From Polynucleobacter sp. (GTDB lineage: Bacteria; Pseudomonadota; Gammaproteobacteria; Burkholderiales; Burkholderiaceae), in NCBI GenBank assembly GCA_023254115.1, contig JALQYK010000038.1, positions 1 to 40,808 on the forward strand: a stretch of 40,808 nt of DNA, read 5' to 3'. The translations under genes and the position numbers were made by a program. The notes under the pieces are model-generated. The model was not told where the DNA came from, did not search any database, and worked only from the letters and a program-made list of their open reading frames with translations. Positions 5,189 to 12,435 of the stretch are shown here, piece by piece (the stretch's first letter is position 1; each line of letters opens with the position of its first letter).

Positions 5189-6796
5189 GTGCACGACAAG
5201 ATTTTGATTTTGGACTTTGGGTCACAAGTGACCCAATTAATTGCTAGGCGCGTACGTGAAGCACGCGTTTATTCAGAAATTCATCCCTATGATGTAGATC
5301 CAAGCTTTATTGAAAAGTTTGTCAAAGAGCAGGGTTGTAAAGGCATTATCTTGTCAGGTGGTCCAAGCTCTGTGACAGAGGGTGATACGCCTCGTGCACC
5401 AGAAATCGTATTTAATTTGGGCGTACCTGTTTTAGGCATTTGTTATGGGATGCAAACAATGGCTGCACAGTTGGGTGGTCAGGTTGCAACTGCTGAATCT
5501 TTAGGTAAATCAAGAGAATTTGGTTACGCTGAGGTTCGTGCAAGAGGCCATACAAAGCTATTAGAAAATATTCAGGACTTCACAACGCCTGAAGGCCATG
5601 GCATTTTGAAGGTATGGATGAGTCATGGTGACTCAGTGACTGAACTCCCTTCAGGCTTTAAGTTGATGGCATCGACCGACTCATGCCCGATTGCGGGTAT
5701 GGCTGATGAAGATCGTCGTTTTTATGCTGTTCAATTCCACCCTGAAGTAACCCACACTGTTTTAGGTAAAGCGATTCTAGAGCGTTTTGTTCATCAAATT
5801 TGTGCCTGTGGCACAGATTGGGTAATGGGTGATTACATTGCTGAAGCAGTTGCATCTATTCGCAAACAAGTTGGTACAGATGAAGTTATTTTAGGTTTGT
5901 CTGGCGGTGTTGATTCAAGTGTTGCTGCAGCTTTGATCCATCGTGCGATTGGCGCTCAGTTAACTTGCGTGTTCGTGGACCATGGTTTGCTTCGCTTAAA
6001 CGAAGGCAAGATGGTGATGGACATGTTTGCCAAGAACTTGGGCGTTAAGGTGATTCATGTTGATGCTACCAATCAGTTTATGGGTGAATTAGCGGGTGTT
6101 TCGGATCCAGAAGCAAAGCGCAAAATCATTGGTAAGGAATTTGTTGAAGTATTCCAAGTTGAATCTGGAAAAATTAAGAATGCTAAGTGGCTCGCACAAG
6201 GCACTATTTATCCAGACGTGATTGAGTCTGCCGGTAAAGGCAAAAAGGGCGCTCACACTATCAAGAGTCATCACAACGTCGGTGGCTTACCTGAGGATAT
6301 GAAACTCCAGTTGTTGGAGCCACTACGTGAGCTGTTTAAAGATGAGGTACGTGAGCTAGGCGTTGCATTGGGCTTACCTCACGAGATGGTTTACCGCCAT
6401 CCATTCCCTGGCCCAGGTTTGGGCGTGCGCATCTTGGGTGAAGTGAAAAAAGATTTCGCTGATTTATTACGCCGTGCCGATGCTATTTTTATTGAAGAGC
6501 TTCGTTCCACTATCGATGAAAACAGTGGTAAATCTTGGTATGACTTAACCAGTCAGGCATTCGCTGTATTTTTGCCAGTTAAATCAGTGGGTGTGATGGG
6601 TGATGGTAGAACTTATGAGTATGTTGTTGCTTTGCGCGCTGTGCAAACACAAGATTTCATGACAGCTCATTGGGCGCACTTGCCTCATGATTTATTGGGT
6701 CGAGTATCTAATCGAATCATTAATGAAGTCCGTGGCATTAACCGAGTTGTCTACGATATTAGCGGTAAGCCACCAGCCACGATCGAGTGGGAGTGA
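5189..6796 (+). CDS. guaA: GMP synthase (glutamine-hydrolysing)
   Basis: Aminates XMP to GMP with ATP and glutamine. GTG start at 5189 with an AGGA site upstream; no ATG fits the conserved N-terminus ([20 protein letters not shown]). Class I amidotransferase domain: Cys85 in GICYGMQ, His184/Glu186 in [11 protein letters not shown] pyrophosphatase domain: P-loop SGGVDSS at 238-244. C-terminal dimerisation domain ends with [18 protein letters not shown]. Full length at 535 residues. The last codons ATC GAG TGG GAG TGA are not the original host ones: an integrative element enters here and replaced GAA TAA by synonymous GAG TGA (see the element). The protein is unchanged. Confidence 0.98.
6782..6792 (+). 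repeat. Left attachment core (attL)
   Basis: ATCGAGTGGGA, inside the last guaA codons. The similarity to the right copy extends to 20 bp (6779-6798 against 11755-11774) with four mismatches, all transitions and all synonymous when read as the end of GuaA (Thr-Ile-Glu-Trp-Glu-stop). Confidence 0.85.
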
Positions 6797-7013
6797 CCTA
6801 ATATCGTTTTGCATCGTTCAAGAACGTACCGCAAAATTGAAATAGTCCAGCTACCGCAATGAGTTACGTGTCCTAATCATTCAAGCTCGTTCATTAGGTA
6901 GATTATTTGGCTAACGGTATTTCAGTCGGTAAATTTTCGGTGTCTCGAGTCTTACCCGAGTGATGCCGTCAGATGGTCTGACGGTATCAAGGTGGACATA
7001 AAAGGATGCCTAA
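6797..7013 (+). promoter_or_regulatory. Left-end noncoding region, integrase leader
   Basis: 217 bp without a gene between guaA and the integrase. It holds TACCGCAA twice (6827-6834, 6852-6859), a CTAACGGTAT site (6911-6920), and a perfect hairpin CCGTCAGA-TGG-TCTGACGG (6966-6984) that runs into TGACGGTAT (6979-6987), the same word found at the right end of the element. These are candidate recombinase arm sites or regulator sites. An AAGGA ribosome site precedes the integrase ATG. I could not pick a convincing promoter. Confidence 0.45.
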
Positions 7014-8369
7014 ATGCTGACGGATACTCAACTTAAAACTCTTAAACCCGCAGAAAAAATTTACAAAGTTACAGACTCTCAAGGGCTGTATATAGCCGTT
7101 TCCCCGGCGGGTGGGAAGTCCTTTCGATTTGACTATAGAGTCGATGGGAAGCGTGAAACACTTACGATTGGCAGATATGAAGATGGCACGCCAAGTCGGT
7201 CACAAAATGAGTTGATTGATCTCGATTTTGGTCGAGTGATATCTCTGGCTGATGCTAGAGCCTTGCATGATAGGGCTAGGCGTATGGTTCAGGCTGGGAA
7301 GTCGCCTTCAAGGGTCAAGGCAGAAAAGCGTATACAGAAGGATCAGGCCGATACTTTTGGGGCCTGGGTTAACAAGTATTTCGAATTTAAATCTGATCCG
7401 AAGAGTGGTGATGAGACATTGGCCGACTCCACCCTTGAACTTCGAAAATCAATCTACCGCCGCATTCTTGAGCCTCAATTAGCTTGCTTGCGGCTGGAAG
7501 AGATTAGGCCTCTGAAGTTGGCAGAGTTGTTCAGAAAAACAAAGGATGAGAGAGGGCCTGGCCCCGCTGTTCATGCGCGTGAACTTGTTCTTTTGGTGTT
7601 TCGCTACGCCATAGGGCAAGGAGTAGATGTTGTGAATCCGGTGGAATCGATCCAACGAAAAACGATTGCAACCTTTAAGGCTCGAGAGAGAAATTTGACT
7701 CGATATGAGATTAAGGAGTTTTTCGAGGCACTCCAAGAGACCGCAACTTCACCAACATTACGTTTGGCTGTGAAATTTGTACTGCTGACAGGTGTGCGTA
7801 AATCGGAATTTATTGGTGCAACTTGGAGAGAGGTTAACTGGGAGCGCTCTGTATGGACGATTCCCGCTTCTCGCATGAAGGCAGGCAGAGAACACAAAGT
7901 GTATCTTTCAGAGCAGGCTTTGGATATTTTGACCACTTTGAAGGCTTGCTTCCCATCGGCGGCATACTTTCATCCAGGGCGATACGAATTCGATGAGTCG
8001 ATTAGCAATGCAACATTAAATCGGACTATTGATGCAGCAGTAAAGGTGATAAACGAAAAGCGACCTCCCGAAAGTGATGATTTCGAGACGTTCTCGGTGC
8101 ATGACTTACGCCGTACATTTTCTACACGGTTGAATGAAGCATTGTTCCCTGAAGCGCTAATCGAAGCTAGCCTGGCTCACGTTAAGAAAGATCAAGTGGC
8201 AGCAGCTTATAACCATGCCAAGCTTCCTGGCCCTAGAAAAGCTCTTATGCAAGGATGGGCTGACATGATCGATGCTTGGTGCAGAGGGGAAAGTGCAAGA
8301 GAGATAGTTGCTTTGACCAAGGGAAAAATTGATAACGCTGCTCACGATGATGATGGGATAGATCTATGA
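7014..8369 (+). CDS. Tyrosine recombinase (island integrase)
   Basis: Site-specific recombinase that presumably integrates and excises the element at the guaA end. N-terminal arm-binding domain of the DUF4102 type (residues about 1-95: LTDTQLKTLKPAEKIYKVTD, GKRETLTIGRY, SLADARALHDRARR), a SAM-like core-binding domain (about 110-215), and a C-terminal catalytic domain. Catalytic residues are all visible: Arg262 in LTGVRKSE, Lys289 in SRMKAGREHKVYLS, His363 and Arg366 in HDLRRTF, His389 in SLAHV, and the nucleophile Tyr399 in AAAYNHA. At 451 residues it is full length. It sits next to attL, reads away from guaA, and its stop overlaps the next start (ATGA), so the next gene is coupled. Confidence 0.95.
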   Translation: MLTDTQLKTLKPAEKIYKVTDSQGLYIAVSPAGGKSFRFDYRVDGKRETLTIGRYEDGTPSRSQNELIDLDFGRVISLADARALHDRARRMVQAGKSPSRVKAEKRIQKDQADTFGAWVNKYFEFKSDPKSGDETLADSTLELRKSIYRRILEPQLACLRLEEIRPLKLAELFRKTKDERGPGPAVHARELVLLVFRYAIGQGVDVVNPVESIQRKTIATFKARERNLTRYEIKEFFEALQETATSPTLRLAVKFVLLTGVRKSEFIGATWREVNWERSVWTIPASRMKAGREHKVYLSEQALDILTTLKACFPSAAYFHPGRYEFDESISNATLNRTIDAAVKVINEKRPPESDDFETFSVHDLRRTFSTRLNEALFPEALIEASLAHVKKDQVAAAYNHAKLPGPRKALMQGWADMIDAWCRGESAREIVALTKGKIDNAAHDDDGIDL

Positions 8370-8842
8370 AAGACACTCTGCTGACCTCACCCCTAACAAG
8401 CGACCAAAAAGCCTTTAGGCAAAGGCTGGATAAGCAGGTGAGCAAGGCAGAGACTGTGGCATTGGGAATATGGCTCCTTGAGTACCAGGTTGGTGGCGTT
8501 AGCCTTGAAAGAATGTCTCGAGAGGTTAAGGATGCATTGATCAAAATTGGAGTTTCAGAACGCGTACGCCAAAGGGTTCTTGGTCAAATGCTGGATGAGG
8601 TGACATCTGTACCCCAACCTAAACGAGGCAAGGGAAGGAAGGGTTATCCAATTGCTTTAAAGAAGACTGCAGCCATCATTGTGGAAATGGTTGCAAAAGC
8701 AGAGCGACTACCAAAAACACGTAGTGAAACAAAAAAGAAAATTTCTGCTTTTGAGCGAACAAGTCAAATTTTGGCCGAGTGTGGATTTGATGTGAAGCCA
8801 GAGACACTCATAGATTGGCACTCTGACTGGCGATCCAATTAA
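8366..8842 (+). CDS. Unknown protein coupled to the integrase
   Basis: Not recognised. 158 residues starting at ATG 8366, whose first bases overlap the integrase stop codon (ATGA), so translation is probably coupled. The N-terminal half looks helical and charged (QKAFRQRLDKQVSKAETVAL); the middle is rich in Lys/Gly/Pro (PQPKRGKGRKGYP); the C-terminal part is again helical and basic (KTRSETKKKISAFERTSQIL) and ends DWHSDWRSN. No membrane segment or signal peptide. The net positive charge and position suggest a DNA-associated accessory or regulatory protein of the recombinase, but that is inference from context only. Confidence 0.7.
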   Translation: MKDTLLTSPLTSDQKAFRQRLDKQVSKAETVALGIWLLEYQVGGVSLERMSREVKDALIKIGVSERVRQRVLGQMLDEVTSVPQPKRGKGRKGYPIALKKTAAIIVEMVAKAERLPKTRSETKKKISAFERTSQILAECGFDVKPETLIDWHSDWRSN

Positions 8843-8845
8843 GTG

Positions 8846-8865
8846 GGCGATATTCAAATATCACC
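8846..8865. promoter_or_regulatory. Dyad upstream of the AlpA-like gene
   Basis: In the 90-bp gap before the AlpA-like gene: GATATT (8849-8854), CA, AATATC (8857-8862), extended by an outer GG/CC pair with one mismatch. It is a candidate operator for autoregulation or for the XRE protein; no binding specificity is known. Confidence 0.35.
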
Positions 8866-8932
8866 AAATATCTAGAAATGGGTTAGTTATCTAGTATCGA
8901 TCTCATTCATTAGCCATCAACGGAGATCGAAA

Positions 8933-9253
8933 ATGCAAGTAACCCAACCCCGTCGCACGATTCGTCGAGCTGCAGTTCTCTCAAAAACAGGTCTATGCCG
9001 AACCAGCCTGTACCACCTTGAAAAAAAGGGTGAGTTTCCAGCTCATTTCTTGTTGACTCCTCGCTGTGCAGTCTGGTTTGAAGATGAGATTGACTCTTGG
9101 TTGGAAGCTCGCCGAAACGCTGTGATTAAAGCAGCGCAATGGCCAAATGTATCTTTGAGAAAAACTGCTCGTGGACGGCCCGCCAATGGCGTGGCTGCAG
9201 TGCAGTACTACTCCCAAGCATCACACTCCAAAAAACCTGTCTCACGTCGCTGA
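8933..9253 (+). CDS. AlpA-like HTH regulator / excisionase
   Basis: 106-residue MerR-fold AlpA-type DNA-binding protein. The core is visible as IRRAAVLSKTGLCRTSLYHL (recognition helix SRSTLY-like CRTSLYHL), EKKGEFPAHF, and VWFEDEIDSWLEARR, which match the AlpA pattern of 'strategy for a site-specific word, then W-x-x-x-E-I-x-x-W'. AlpA proteins activate integrase or excision genes in satellites of the P4 type and in integrative islands. The start has a GGAGATCG ribosome site. The tail after residue 65 (basic, RKTARGRPANG) is longer than in the shortest AlpA proteins. It lies between the integrase block and the replication-like gene, the usual order in such islands. Confidence 0.85.
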   Translation: MQVTQPRRTIRRAAVLSKTGLCRTSLYHLEKKGEFPAHFLLTPRCAVWFEDEIDSWLEARRNAVIKAAQWPNVSLRKTARGRPANGVAAVQYYSQASHSKKPVSRR

Positions 9254-9273
9254 ATGGCAGAAAGCGTTTCAGT

Positions 9274-9858
9274 ATGAGCAGGAGTAAAAAGGTTCCAGAA
9301 ACCATTAGTGGCCAGATTCTTGCAATTCCACGCAACGTAAAACGGTCGGAAGCCTTCAAGGCTTGTTCTCCGCTAGCCAGAGCTTTGCTTATCGAGCTGG
9401 CTGACCAACATAATGGTGCAAATAATGGTCGATTGCATTTGTCATATGTGTATTTACGAGAACAAGGTTTTCGATCAAAAGATCAAATCGCCAAGGGGCG
9501 TGACGAGTTAATAGCTCGCAATTTAATCATCCTCACTAGACAAGGTGGGTTACCAATTCGAAATGAGGGCAGAACAACCTTTGGGGGAGCGTCGTGGTTT
9601 GCGTTGACATGGCATCGCATATCAAATTTTGTCGGACTCGACATTAGTTCCAGCCAATATCATCCCGGAGCTTGGGCTAGACCTTGCCAATTGACTAATA
9701 GACCCCAGCCCGAAGCTTTAAAGGCGGCTCAAATAAAACGCAGATTGCAGCCTGCGGTACAGGCTAGTTCCGACCCGTATTGCGGGGCAAAACAGAACGG
9801 CAATGACCCGTATCACGGGTCGATAGCCCCTAAATCTAGGCACCTGACTGTCCCGTGA
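9274..9858 (+). CDS. Replication-initiator-like winged-helix protein
   Basis: Probably 194 residues from ATG 9274 (MSRSKKVPETISGQILAIPR); the reading frame is open further upstream (ATG 9139) but that part lies on top of the AlpA-like gene and reads as nonsense. The region EAFKACSPLARALLIELADQ, then NNGRLHLSYVYLREQGF and KGRDELIARNLIILTRQGG, looks like a winged-helix DNA-binding fold of the kind found in replication proteins of islands and phages, with ASWFALTWHRIS following. The C-terminal quarter is low complexity and holds repeats (SDPYCG, NDPYHG) encoded by DNA dyads. Function is inferred from position after AlpA and general appearance; I cannot name a family with certainty. Confidence 0.6.
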   Translation: MSRSKKVPETISGQILAIPRNVKRSEAFKACSPLARALLIELADQHNGANNGRLHLSYVYLREQGFRSKDQIAKGRDELIARNLIILTRQGGLPIRNEGRTTFGGASWFALTWHRISNFVGLDISSSQYHPGAWARPCQLTNRPQPEALKAAQIKRRLQPAVQASSDPYCGAKQNGNDPYHGSIAPKSRHLTVP

Positions 9859-9864
9859 TGCGGG
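9774..9864 (+). repeat. Three 13-bp dyad repeats at the end of the Rep-like gene
   Basis: CCCGTATTGCGGG (9774-9786), CCCGTATCACGGG (9807-9819) and CCCGTGATGCGGG (9852-9864). Each is a CCCG...CGGG dyad. Spacings are 33 and 45 nt, both multiples of three, so copies 1 and 2 encode DPYCG and DPYHG in frame, and copy 3 contains the stop codon. A further dyad of different sequence, GCCTG-CGGTA-CAGGC, lies just upstream near 9750. They may be binding sites for the encoded protein (iteron-like) or sites on single strands. Confidence 0.6.
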
Positions 9865-10200
9865 AACAATGTAATACGCCATTCAATGCTTATATCCATG
9901 AGCATATGAAATCATTTGAGGGCGAGCACATCATTCGTATCCGATCGTGAATGACTGACTTAAGTCATTGTGGGAAATAAGAAAAAATCAGGTTCAAGCC
10001 AGAATTACCGTCATTTTTACTGGCGAAGATAGGCTTTTTGTTCGGGCCATTTATCCACAACCTGCAACATCTGGGTGCTTAATTCGTCGTTATAAATGGT
10101 TTGTGAAGACTTTTTATGCGAATCTACTGGGCACTTTACAGCACGCATCGCGTGCGCGCGCGAGGCTGCATTGTTGAATTTCAGCCTATGAACGTATTCT
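9859..10200. other. 342-bp noncoding region, possible origin
   Basis: No convincing gene. It holds the third dyad repeat (to 9864), a 12-bp perfect palindrome TGACTTAAGTCA (9956-9967), a perfect DnaA box (10051-10059), and a GC-rich hairpin GCACGC-ATC-GCGTGC (10141-10155) followed by alternating CG. Lying directly after the replication-like gene, this combination would suit an origin of replication for the excised circle, but no AT-rich unwinding element is obvious. A weak minus-strand frame (10017-10238) crosses it. Confidence 0.4.
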
Positions 10201-10238
10201 TTAAGGCCGCCTGCCGGAATGCTCTCGAATTCGTTCAA
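10017..10238 (-). CDS. Doubtful small ORF behind the XRE gene
   Basis: 73-residue frame starting at ATG 10238 and overlapping the end of the XRE gene by 38 nt on the same strand. The end (STQMLQVVDKWPEQKAYLRQ) has a plausible amino-acid mix, while the middle (NNAASRAHAMRAVKC) is encoded by the CG-rich hairpin and looks unnatural. No family recognised and no clear ribosome site. It could be a small partner of the repressor or only an open frame. Confidence 0.25.
   Translation of the reverse strand: MNEFESIPAGGLKEYVHRLKFNNAASRAHAMRAVKCPVDSHKKSSQTIYNDELSTQMLQVVDKWPEQKAYLRQ
10051..10059 (+). promoter_or_regulatory. DnaA box, perfect consensus
   Basis: TTATCCACA, identical to the strict DnaA-box consensus. 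A single 9-mer can occur by chance, but it lies in the noncoding region behind the replication-like gene of the element. Confidence 0.45.
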
Positions 10239-10440
10239 ACAGTTCGAAGACAGTTATCCCTAATGAGTTGCTGATTACCTCGATAGCGTTGAGAGAAGGA
10301 TTTGCCTGACCAGTTTCAATGCGGCTTAAGTAGGTTTGATAAAAACCACATCGCTCCGCAAACACGACCTGCGACATCCCCATCTCGTTCCGGAGAGCCC
10401 TAACAACTATTCCAAAGCGATGTGAGAGGTTATGTTGCAC
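10201..10440 (-). CDS. XRE-family HTH repressor
   Basis: 79-residue single-domain Cro/C1-type DNA-binding protein. The helix-turn-helix is clear: VVRALRNEMGMSQVVFAERC, GFYQTYLSRIETGQANPSLN, AIEVISNSLGITVFELFERI. It resembles small C-type controller proteins. The start is GTG at 10440 (MQHNLSHRFG); no ATG is suitably placed. It is divergent from the small membrane protein gene, and the 62-bp space contains dyads and a promoter, so it most likely represses itself and the rightward small-gene operon of the element. Confidence 0.88.
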   Translation of the reverse strand: MQHNLSHRFGIVVRALRNEMGMSQVVFAERCGFYQTYLSRIETGQANPSLNAIEVISNSLGITVFELFERIREHSGRRP

Positions 10441-10463
10441 ATAGCAACTATCTACGTTATGCT
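10434..10463 (+). promoter_or_regulatory. Rightward promoter with dyads, likely XRE operator
   Basis: TTGCAC (10435-10440), 17-nt spacer, TATGCT (10458-10463) faces the small-gene operon. Two dyads overlap it: GTTGC-ACATA-GCAAC (10434-10448) and AGCAAC...GTTATGCT (10444-10463). The GTG start of the repressor sits inside the -35 box, so binding here could control both directions. Confidence 0.5.
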
Positions 10464-10502
10464 CTAAATCACATACACACTAATTCATATAACAAAGACG
10501 CT

Positions 10503-10730
10503 ATGTCTGATGAGAGAGTTTCCTTTTCCGAAGAGCAATTGTCTGAACTATTGAAAAGACAGAGGCACAAGGGTGCAGAGAGAACATTTGGTTATGTCTT
10601 TGCATCAAGCATATTGGCGGCAATAGTTGTTGGCTTGGCGTATAGCTATCTTGATGCAGGCCAATCAATGCTTATGACTGCAACAATTTTGATCAGTGCG
10701 GCGGCTTTTGCAATGGTTACATCAAACTGA
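10503..10730 (+). CDS. Small membrane protein, two TM helices
   Basis: 75 residues from ATG 10503 (MSDERVSFSEEQLSELLKRQ); the frame is open upstream to 10422 but that extension overlaps the repressor start and reads as nonsense. A charged N-terminal helix of about 27 residues is followed by two hydrophobic segments, TFGYVFASSILAAIVVGLAY and MLMTATILISAAAFAMV, joined by a short loop. Unknown family. First gene of the rightward operon facing the XRE repressor; the arrangement of repressor plus small inner-membrane protein recalls toxin or exclusion genes, but nothing in the sequence proves that. Confidence 0.6.
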   Translation: MSDERVSFSEEQLSELLKRQRHKGAERTFGYVFASSILAAIVVGLAYSYLDAGQSMLMTATILISAAAFAMVTSN

Positions 10731-10741
10731 TTGGGCCAAAA

Positions 10742-10975
10742 GTGAAACAAGCGCAATCAGAGGCAAATTCATTTTTAGATTTGCCAGATGACCTTTTCAT
10801 GCTTGCCATGTGCATTAGGAAGGAAAACTTAAAGGATCCAGCTAAATGGTGCACTGAAATGCGAGCGCTGGCACGAGCAAGAAAGATTGGGCCTAAAACC
10901 TCCAAAGAGGCAGAGGAATTGCTCGAATGGGCCAACCGCCTGTCGTTAGAAGCGCGTGGAGAAATCAACAACTAG
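10742..10975 (+). CDS. Hypothetical 77-residue protein
   Basis: Starts at GTG 10742, 11 nt after the membrane protein stop. The sequence (SFLDLPDDLFMLAMCIRKEN, CTEMRALARARKIGPKTSKE, ELLEWANRLSLEARGEINN) looks like a small soluble helical protein. No family recognised, no signal or membrane segment. Part of the same short operon. Confidence 0.55.
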   Translation: MKQAQSEANSFLDLPDDLFMLAMCIRKENLKDPAKWCTEMRALARARKIGPKTSKEAEELLEWANRLSLEARGEINN

Positions 10976-10999
10976 TTAATCGCTGTCAGGAGAAAATTG

Positions 11000-11278
11000 A
11001 TGCCATCACAACTCGAGTTACTACAGGAAAGCTTGGCACGCCTGGAACCGGAGTATGGGCCGGAGAATCCGTTTGTGAAGGGTTTGAAAACGCAGATAGC
11101 TGGGCTAGAGAATCAACAGTACAGGGCGCAGGAAAGGGAGCGGTTCAACCTGGCCGTGACCTCCTCGTCCAATCAGGGGTCAGAGCCGGAGCCGGAAGAT
11201 ATAGCTGCATTTAACCTATACGAGAAGAGAGTTGCAGAAATCTCAAAGGGTGAAAATGGCAAGGGAGAGTTGGAATGA
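11000..11278 (+). CDS. Hypothetical 92-residue coiled-coil-like protein
   Basis: Starts at ATG 11000 behind a strong AGGAGA site; an in-frame TTG one codon earlier (10997) is less likely. The N-terminal half is helical and rich in Leu/Glu/Gln (MPSQLELLQESLARLEPEYG, LKTQIAGLENQQYRAQERER) and could form a coiled coil; a Ser/Asn/Pro linker (TSSSNQGSEPEPED) leads to an acidic-basic tail. No family recognised. The stop overlaps the next start by 4 nt (ATGA), so it is translationally coupled to the lipoprotein gene. Confidence 0.6.
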   Translation: MPSQLELLQESLARLEPEYGPENPFVKGLKTQIAGLENQQYRAQERERFNLAVTSSSNQGSEPEPEDIAAFNLYEKRVAEISKGENGKGELE

Positions 11279-11502
11279 AGGCAATTCTCGCTATGTTGGG
11301 GGCAGCTTTGCTGGTAGCCTGCGCTGGAACGCCTTCCGGTGAACACTCACGTATTGCAGTACTGCAAAATCCGGAGACAAAGCAAACCGTTGAATGTCGA
11401 GCCGACCCCTGGGGTGATATGAACTACAGGCGGCAGATAGATAACTGCATTAAAGCTTATAAAGGTGCTGGGTACGTGATTCGGTCTGATGTTGGACCAT
11501 AG
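11275..11502 (+). CDS. Small lipoprotein of the element
   Basis: 75 residues with a type II signal peptide MKAILAMLGAALLVAC and lipobox LVAC (Cys16), so the mature protein is a lipid-anchored domain of about 60 residues. The mature part has two further cysteines (VECRADPWGD, IDNCIKAYKGAGYV) that could form a disulfide in the periplasm. I do not recognise a named family. Last gene before the right end of the element and coupled to the preceding gene; an envelope lipoprotein as cargo suggests surface modification or exclusion, which is speculative. Confidence 0.7.
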   Translation: MKAILAMLGAALLVACAGTPSGEHSRIAVLQNPETKQTVECRADPWGDMNYRRQIDNCIKAYKGAGYVIRSDVGP

Positions 11503-11525
11503 TCATTTTGCGAGCATCTTTTTAA

Positions 11526-11697
11526 ATACCGTCAAAGCTCTGAACATACCGTCAAGATACAGTCCAAAACCACCAAAATTTACCGCCATCAAATCATAAG
11601 TAGTCCAATGTGAAGCTAATCCGTTGAGGTTCAATCAACACTGTTTCTGCGGGTTTAACTCGACTGCAAGAAGGGAAGACGGTAACATTGACGGTAT
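11526..11697. repeat. ATACCGTCAA repeats at the right end
   Basis: ATACCGTCAA occurs at 11526-11535 and 11546-11555 (20 bp apart, same orientation) and inverted at 11688-11697. A near copy lies at the left end (TGACGGTAT, 6979-6987). Their position inside both ends of the element suits arm-type recombinase sites or excisionase sites. The rest of 11503-11757 contains no gene that I can see. A TTGACA abuts the right core (11752-11757), but no matching -10 box is present. Confidence 0.5.
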
Positions 11698-11757
11698 TAG
11701 ATTTCTTGGACATCCCTTATGCCTTTTGTTACGCCTGCCTTCGCTACCCTATTGACA

Positions 11758-11768
11758 ATCGAGTGGGA
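11758..11768 (+). repeat. Right attachment core (attR) with displaced guaA end
   Basis: ATCGAGTGGGA, followed by ATAA, so the host DNA resumes as ATC GAG TGG GAA TAA (11758-11772): Ile-Glu-Trp-Glu-stop, the original end of guaA. queE starts 9 nt further on. Confidence 0.88.
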
Positions 11769-11781
11769 ATAATCAAGTCTG

Positions 11782-12435
11782 ATGACTTATAGCGTCAAAG
11801 AACTTTTTCTGACTATTCAGGGCGAGGGTGCTCAAACTGGCCGTGCTGCAGTTTTTTGTCGCTTTAGTGGCTGCAACCTTTGGACTGGTCGTGAAGAGGA
11901 TCGTTCTTCTGCAATCTGTCAATTTTGCGACACAGATTTTGTTGGCACAGATGGTGATGGTGGCGGTAAGTTTGAGATGGCCGCGCAATTAGCTACAAGG
12001 ATTAACGATACTTGGGGTGATGGTGATCCACATCACAAGTATGTGGTGTTCACCGGTGGTGAACCACTTTTGCAGTTAGATAAAGCTCTCATTGATGAGT
12101 TACATCAATTAGGATTCAAAATTGCTATAGAAACGAACGGTACGATGCGTGCACCTGCCGGAATTGATTGGATTTGCGTGAGTCCTAAGTATGGTTCAGA
12201 CCTAATTCAGGTTCAAGGCGATGAGTTAAAGCTTGTGATTCCTCAGTTTGGACATGAGGGTAAATTGCCGCAATTACTCGCGCGCTTTGAAAAAATGTCG
12301 TTTAAACATCATTTTCTTCAACCGTTAGATGGACCGAATAAGGCAGCTAATACTGAATTAGCCATTAAAATCTGCCAATCTCGTCCTTTGTGGCGTTTGA
12401 GTACCCAAACTCATAAAATTTTGGGTATCCGTTAA
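11782..12435 (+). CDS. queE: 7-carboxy-7-deazaguanine synthase
   Basis: Radical SAM enzyme making 7-carboxy-7-deazaguanine from the QueD product, for queuosine. The cluster motif is of the longer CX14CX2C type (Cys31, Cys46, Cys49 in the stretch from SGCNLWTG to CQFCDTDF) instead of CX3CX2C, as is usual in many proteobacterial QueE proteins. The N-terminus LFLTIQGEGAQTGRAAVFCR and YVVFTGGEPLLQLD are typical. 217 residues, normal. Start ATG 11782. queE was 9 nt behind guaA before the element entered, so it has lost its upstream operon partner and may need a new promoter. Confidence 0.95.
   Translation: MTYSVKELFLTIQGEGAQTGRAAVFCRFSGCNLWTGREEDRSSAICQFCDTDFVGTDGDGGGKFEMAAQLATRINDTWGDGDPHHKYVVFTGGEPLLQLDKALIDELHQLGFKIAIETNGTMRAPAGIDWICVSPKYGSDLIQVQGDELKLVIPQFGHEGKLPQLLARFEKMSFKHHFLQPLDGPNKAANTELAIKICQSRPLWRLSTQTHKILGIR

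Follow-up and report, generated by a model that had tools for sequence, protein, structure and literature searches.

The 3' end of guaA, the gene of GMP synthase, is a described point of entry for integrative elements. Islands linked to this gene frequently carry P4 integrases, AlpA and the sequence GAGTGGGA (Song et al. 2012, as summarised in the excerpted text of PMC7775301), and for GIsul2 the integrase-mediated excision and integration at the guaA 3' end, at GAGTGGGA, have been reported (PMC9376610, in excerpt). guaA is also among the sites listed for the integration of mobilizable elements, and decayed units with retained attachment (att) sites have been described (PMC5704250, in excerpt). 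Literature on the guaA site in connection with genomic islands or integrases of Polynucleobacter was not found, as judged by titles. The present analysis concerns a stretch of 40,808 nucleotides (nt) from Polynucleobacter sp. (GCA_023254115.1, contig JALQYK010000038.1), below called the window, in which an interval of 4,976 bp, measured from core start to core start, separates guaA from queE. This interval is almost certainly a small guaA-associated integrative genomic island and a further member of an established class of guaA insertions.

The window element shows every mark of guaA islands in this literature that could be tested. As in the islands of Song et al. (PMC7775301, excerpted text), a P4-type integrase gene stands at the guaA 3' end, an AlpA gene (PF05930) is found near it, and the flanking direct repeats contain GAGTGGGA; the window element is, however, only about 5 kb long, has no recognised cargo, and few or no relatives were found for its genes apart from those of the integrase and AlpA. 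GIsul2 inserts at the same place, at GAGTGGGA, but is listed with RepA and RepC and, in the excerpted PMC9376610, with sul2, whereas a Rep-like protein and no recognised resistance gene are present here. The window integrase has matches at 42.4% identity on plasmid records, including one of A. baumannii ATCC 17978, and this match is presumably the GIsul2 integrase of pAB3, the plasmid named as a GIsul2 carrier (PMC9376610, in excerpt). ICERspD18B of Rheinheimera sp. D18 shares the location at the guaA 3' end, a P4 integrase, AlpA and a 20-bp direct repeat, ACAATNGAGTGGGAATNNTT, but it is a 28.5-kb conjugative element with a type IV secretion system and a relaxase (PMC7775301, excerpted text), neither of which was recognised in the window element. 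A contig titled Rheinheimera sp. D18 was recovered in the genome scan described below (L183).

Attachment cores, empty site and integrase linkage

The guaA gene of the window ends, by direct reading, as ACG ATC GAG TGG GAG TGA (6779–6796), and a second guaA-like tail, ACA ATC GAG TGG GAA TAA (11755–11772), stands ahead of queE, whose ATG lies 9 nt past this old guaA stop. Both tails contain the 11-mer ATCGAGTGGGA, which the preliminary description of this DNA had placed at the two ends of the element; a search of the window gives these two matches and no other, and none of 100 dinucleotide-preserving shuffles contains it. The 20-bp flanks compared there, ACGATCGAGTGGGAGTGACC and ACAATCGAGTGGGAATAATC, differ exactly as described, at four positions, all of them transitions.

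In a set of 186 same-genus genomes, including that of the window (G000), the closest genome by queE among the matches listed is G124 (93.1% amino acid (aa) identity; 98.9% for guaA). Its guaA ends as ACG ATC GAG TGG GAA TAA and queE starts 10 nt later, so that the empty site foreseen earlier, a guaA ending GAA TAA and followed shortly by queE, exists in a relative, with a spacer of 10 instead of 9 nt. The bases preceding the core in G124 resemble the left end in the window and those following it the right end, a pattern expected if all DNA between the cores is inserted. In another relative (G066), guaA ends as ACC ATT GAG TGG GAA TAA and queE follows after 18 nt. On balance, guaA in the window has changed at two bases, GAA having become GAG and TAA having become TGA. 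The earlier view of a synonymous swap of the guaA end is thus sound as regards the unchanged protein but too wide in extent, since, by comparison with G124, the replacement is confined to the stop and the third base of the Glu codon, and the Thr-Ile part is the host's own.

The integrase adjoining the left core belongs to a family linked to guaA. In a family-level scan of 398 genomes drawn from a larger group (E up to 1e-60), 30 genomes, the window's included, contained a match; loci were cut for 29 of the 34 non-self places, and the guaA C-terminus was found upstream in 27 of these 29, with a distance of about 1.4 kb in L095. Among the best 80 of 574 confirmed candidates in a scan of genome contigs, guaA stood upstream in 73 loci, 204–335 bp from the integrase match, and in 72 of the 73 the alignment extends to the final residue and is followed by a stop (the exception is L175). 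The two scans overlap, L076 and L138 being apparently one contig. Within the genus, integrase matches at E up to 1e-30 were present in 9 of the 186 genomes, the window's included, and the best match other than the window's own had 36% identity; an origin of the integrase outside the sampled genus is therefore probable. Scans of viral contigs with AlpA and with the integrase returned no relatives.

The position at which host sequence gives way to element sequence was estimated from 110 loci, of which 99 were kept (98 distinct; L076, L078, L095, L126, L127, L138, L141, L168, L175, L177 and L178 were dropped); for 87 of the distinct loci, the nearest neighbour by integrase was not the nearest by guaA. 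Before the core, the host (guaA) neighbour agrees better at offsets -8, -7, -4 and -1, by 0.07–0.10 (0.63 vs 0.54 at -1), and offset -10 is a near tie (0.59 for the host vs 0.60 for the integrase neighbour), so the host bias on this side is modest. After the core, agreement is better with the integrase neighbour at all variable offsets from +8 to +30, the difference often being 0.2–0.4 (0.89 vs 0.72 at +10; 0.89 vs 0.47 at +25). Moreover, six different host hexamers precede the core in ten loci whose 40 nt behind it are identical. Taken together, the neighbour agreement by offset and the variation of these hexamers place the switch from host to element within or next to GAGTGGGA. All 98 loci encode TIEWE followed by a stop, a count that is partly circular, as the pattern used forces EWE and TRR.

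Most likely, the P4-type tyrosine integrase recombined the attP site of the element with a chromosomal attB site formed by the last guaA codons, the exact crossover probably falling within GAGTGGGA. The attP would carry a copy of the guaA end, ACA ATC GAG TGG GAG TGA, and integration would therefore keep the GuaA protein while replacing its last codon base and stop. The original guaA end would in this way have been shifted about 5 kb downstream, before queE, and excision would yield the circle junction ACAATCGAGTGGGAGTGA and the empty site ACGATCGAGTGGGAATAA.

Gene content and competing explanations

The features of the element and its borders are collected in Table 1. In the integrase, R262, H363, R366, H389 and Y399, which we take to be the catalytic residues, are invariant in a 14-sequence alignment. 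The protein also matches phrog_1 and, below the cut-off, PRK09692; the P4-type label is a tentative one, given from the domain pattern. The 158-aa protein had no match in plasmid records, and the Rep-like protein had one weak match there (Cupriavidus, 39% identity over 59%) and one in phage records (35% over 62%). Palindromes of the form CCCG-N5-CGGG begin at 9774, 9807 and 9852 in the 3' end of the Rep-like gene, the last overrunning its stop, and could possibly be iterons. Three such palindromes stand within 91 bp (9774–9864), compared with one elsewhere in the window (21902).

The nine TACCGY repeats in the two element ends, which may be arm sites of the integrase, compare with a mean of 0.36 in shuffled sequence, and none of 2000 shuffles reached nine; the motif was chosen after the sequence had been viewed, so this figure is descriptive. 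The XRE protein has sub-threshold matches to the TrbA and MobT models, which were read as helix-turn-helix matches. Defence cargo was considered and rejected, as all PADLOC matches fell on the same regulator and were likewise read as generic helix-turn-helix hits. No Rfam family was found at 6500–12000, and no unusual fold at the right end of the element (z -0.11).

Table 1. Features of the guaA-associated island and of its borders in the window
Feature	Coordinates	Strand	Basis
guaA (GMP synthase), host gene; stop and final codon base element-derived (GAG TGA)	5189..6796	+	NF000848, E 6.6e-241; tail compared with G124
attL, left att core ATCGAGTGGGA; contains the reported cutting site GAGTGGGA	6782..6792	+	exact match; literature site
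Left attachment arm, four TACCGY repeats (6827, 6852, 6914, 6981), possible integrase arm sites	6793..7013	.	motif picked after seeing the sequence
P4-type tyrosine integrase, 451 aa, Arm-DNA-bind_3 and Phage_integrase	7014..8369	+	profile matches, alignment
158-aa protein, function unknown; overlaps integrase stop	8366..8842	+	no family above cut-off
AlpA-like regulator, probable excision partner	8933..9253	+	PF05930, E 2.8e-12; phrog_2790, E 1.7e-10
Rep-like protein	9274..9858	+	phrog_270 (replication initiation), E 1.1e-6
XRE/Cro-C1-type regulator, 79 aa; reads opposite to the rest of the listed genes	10201..10440	-	PF01381, E 5e-12
Small putative membrane protein; start at an in-frame ATG within the 10422-10730 open reading frame (ORF)	10503..10730	+	ORF list; start and membrane reading by eye
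77-aa ORF, unknown	10742..10975	+	ORF list; no Pfam match
93-aa ORF, unknown	10997..11278	+	ORF list; sub-threshold matches only
75-aa putative lipoprotein; lipobox-like LLVACAG by eye	11275..11502	+	ORF list; phrog_3641, E 0.006
Right attachment arm, five TACCGY repeats (11527, 11547, 11581, 11679, 11691)	11503..11757	.	motif count
attR, right att core ATCGAGTGGGA	11758..11768	+	exact match
Displaced original guaA end (A TAA) and 9-nt spacer to queE	11769..11781	+	compared with the G124 empty site
queE (7-carboxy-7-deazaguanine synthase), displaced downstream gene	11782..12435	+	TIGR04508, E 5.6e-100, above cut-off; 93.1% aa to G124 queE

It is quite possible, although short of probable, that the interval is a decayed remnant, which entered in the same manner but is now immobile, perhaps left over by deletion from a larger island, with integrase and att sites retained. 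The length of only 5 kb without a matched transfer or cargo family fits such a history, as does the segment 9859–10200, which holds short ORFs only; moreover, larger ORFs follow the integrase in five related loci, islands whose boundaries were not located. However, the integrase reading frame is open and retains the invariant residues, the AlpA frame is open as well, both cores are intact and arm-like repeats stand at both ends.

A further question is what the insertion did to the genes behind it. The preliminary description had proposed that guaB-guaA-queE-queD-tadA-ldcA formed one run, now interrupted. In the window, guaB, queE, queD and tadA score above their NCBIfam cut-offs, and ldcA (muramoyltetrapeptide carboxypeptidase) has a strong match below it. 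The run is contiguous on one contig in G124, which bears the proposal out for this lineage, and guaA and queE may formerly have shared a transcript; in the genus at large, the adjacency is uncommon. From at least 142 queE and at least 138 guaA entries, 120 genomes, G000 included, had both genes on one contig and strand, and 17 on different contigs or strands. The two genes lie within 20 nt of each other in 2 of the 119 other genomes among the matches listed, the remaining 117 being separated by at least 467 nt, most commonly by an interval near 4.2 kb. All seven non-adjacent loci that were inspected contain other genes between guaA and queE; in G069, G107, G011 and G023 an ORF of 631–643 aa lies there, of radical-SAM/B12 type as identified on the G069 copy. 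This gene is present in G069 but was without a match in G000, G124, G066 and G053 (G000 is 93% and G124 86% complete). Because the adjacency is rare and this intervening gene has no match in those four genomes, the adjacency looks derived in the window lineage, or may have arisen more than once.

A polar effect of the insertion on queE and the later genes is conceivable, but we hold it with some doubt. The element breaks a run of adjacent genes, promoter-like sites are not in excess at 6700–11850 (4 found vs 7.0 expected), and the one at the right end (11769–11798) is on the minus strand. Terminator-like sites are not in excess either (5 found vs 5.4 expected), however, and all listed element genes except that of the XRE regulator are co-directional with guaA, so that read-through would be possible. 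In addition, a frame of 17 codons (11719–11772) that starts in the element terminates with the displaced guaA stop, 9 nt short of queE, and could couple translation into queE, although so short a frame may be there by chance.

Several points weigh against an integrative island. Mobility was not observed, the element is single-copy in its genome, and the assembly of G000 consists of 118 contigs, so misassembly is possible. No close copy of the whole element was found: its DNA has no match in any of nine selected relatives, which include G124 and G066 (the same search does find it in G000). A scan of nine ORFs of the element produced no relaxase, type IV secretion or resistance family above the cut-off; a relaxase and/or type IV secretion genes, by which integrative conjugative or mobilizable elements are defined, were thus not found in these ORFs, and the element may contain an unknown relaxase or origin of transfer (oriT). 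In 7 of the best 80 scan loci guaA was not found upstream: L126 has, at the edge of its contig, guaA-like last residues only; the core pattern falls outside guaA in L127, L138, L141 and L168; and in L177 and L178 a core is lacking over 1,200 nt. Of the other element proteins, AlpA and weak XRE matches alone were recovered in the integrase loci, many of which have short flanks.

The repeat by itself would be weak proof of an element, because other imperfect two-copy repeats of 14–16 nt are present in the same region; it gains weight because the cores stand at both gene borders, a relative has the empty site, and a guaA-linked integrase adjoins. That it is a chance or duplication artefact within ordinary intergenic DNA, as those imperfect repeats and a guanine-cytosine content little different from the flanks might suggest, is hardly credible, given the guaA-linked integrase, the position of both cores exactly at gene borders and, above all, the empty site in the closest relative, which refutes it unless G124 is misassembled.

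The guaA tail in the genus

The pattern ATHGAGTGGGARTRR was matched in 176 of the 186 genus genomes. In at least 17 of them, G000 included, it recurs on the same contig and strand, the two or more copies standing 0.4–18 kb apart, and among the multi-copy loci retrieved are six with a different tyrosine integrase and seven units in which no integrase was seen. Since such loci carry other integrases or none, the last guaA codons might be a shared docking site for distinct tyrosine-integrase lineages, each with its own synonymous tail, where integrase-less units accrete and may move in trans and where the window element would be the P4-type occupant; we consider this broader reading rather unlikely at present.

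The six loci with another integrase (L102, L203, L205, L206, L209 and L210, from G023, G038, G043, G044, G065 and G083) encode it behind guaA as a protein of 419–429 aa, and the elements are bracketed by ATHGAGTGGGARTRR copies 6.3–14.4 kb apart. Phage_integrase matches all six, above the cut-off in four and slightly below it in G044 and G083, and a further integrase, of 442 aa, occurs at the guaA site of G047. The seven units of 0.4–6.5 kb between two guaA-tail copies (L200, L201, L202, L208, L211, L212 and L219, from G014, G017, G021, G059, G089, G099 and G030) have no integrase among their listed ORFs of at least 100 aa; they contain AzlC/AzlD genes in G017 (similar ORFs in G014), a PIN-domain gene in G021, and others. 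An arm motif, AAGY-NN-TTGAT, is common to the units of G014, G030 and G089 and to five of the six elements with another integrase. By eye, the right-hand cores of L202 (G021) and L201 (G017) are guaA-like over some 40 or more bases, beyond the short core, and these units may carry, or may have displaced, a longer guaA end.

Summarizing, the locus is a clean case, complete with its empty site, of an element that leaves a core metabolic gene intact while taking its last bases. The results suggest that the gene order behind guaA in this genus has been shaped by repeated insertion, and therefore operon claims at this place need a comparison with the empty site.

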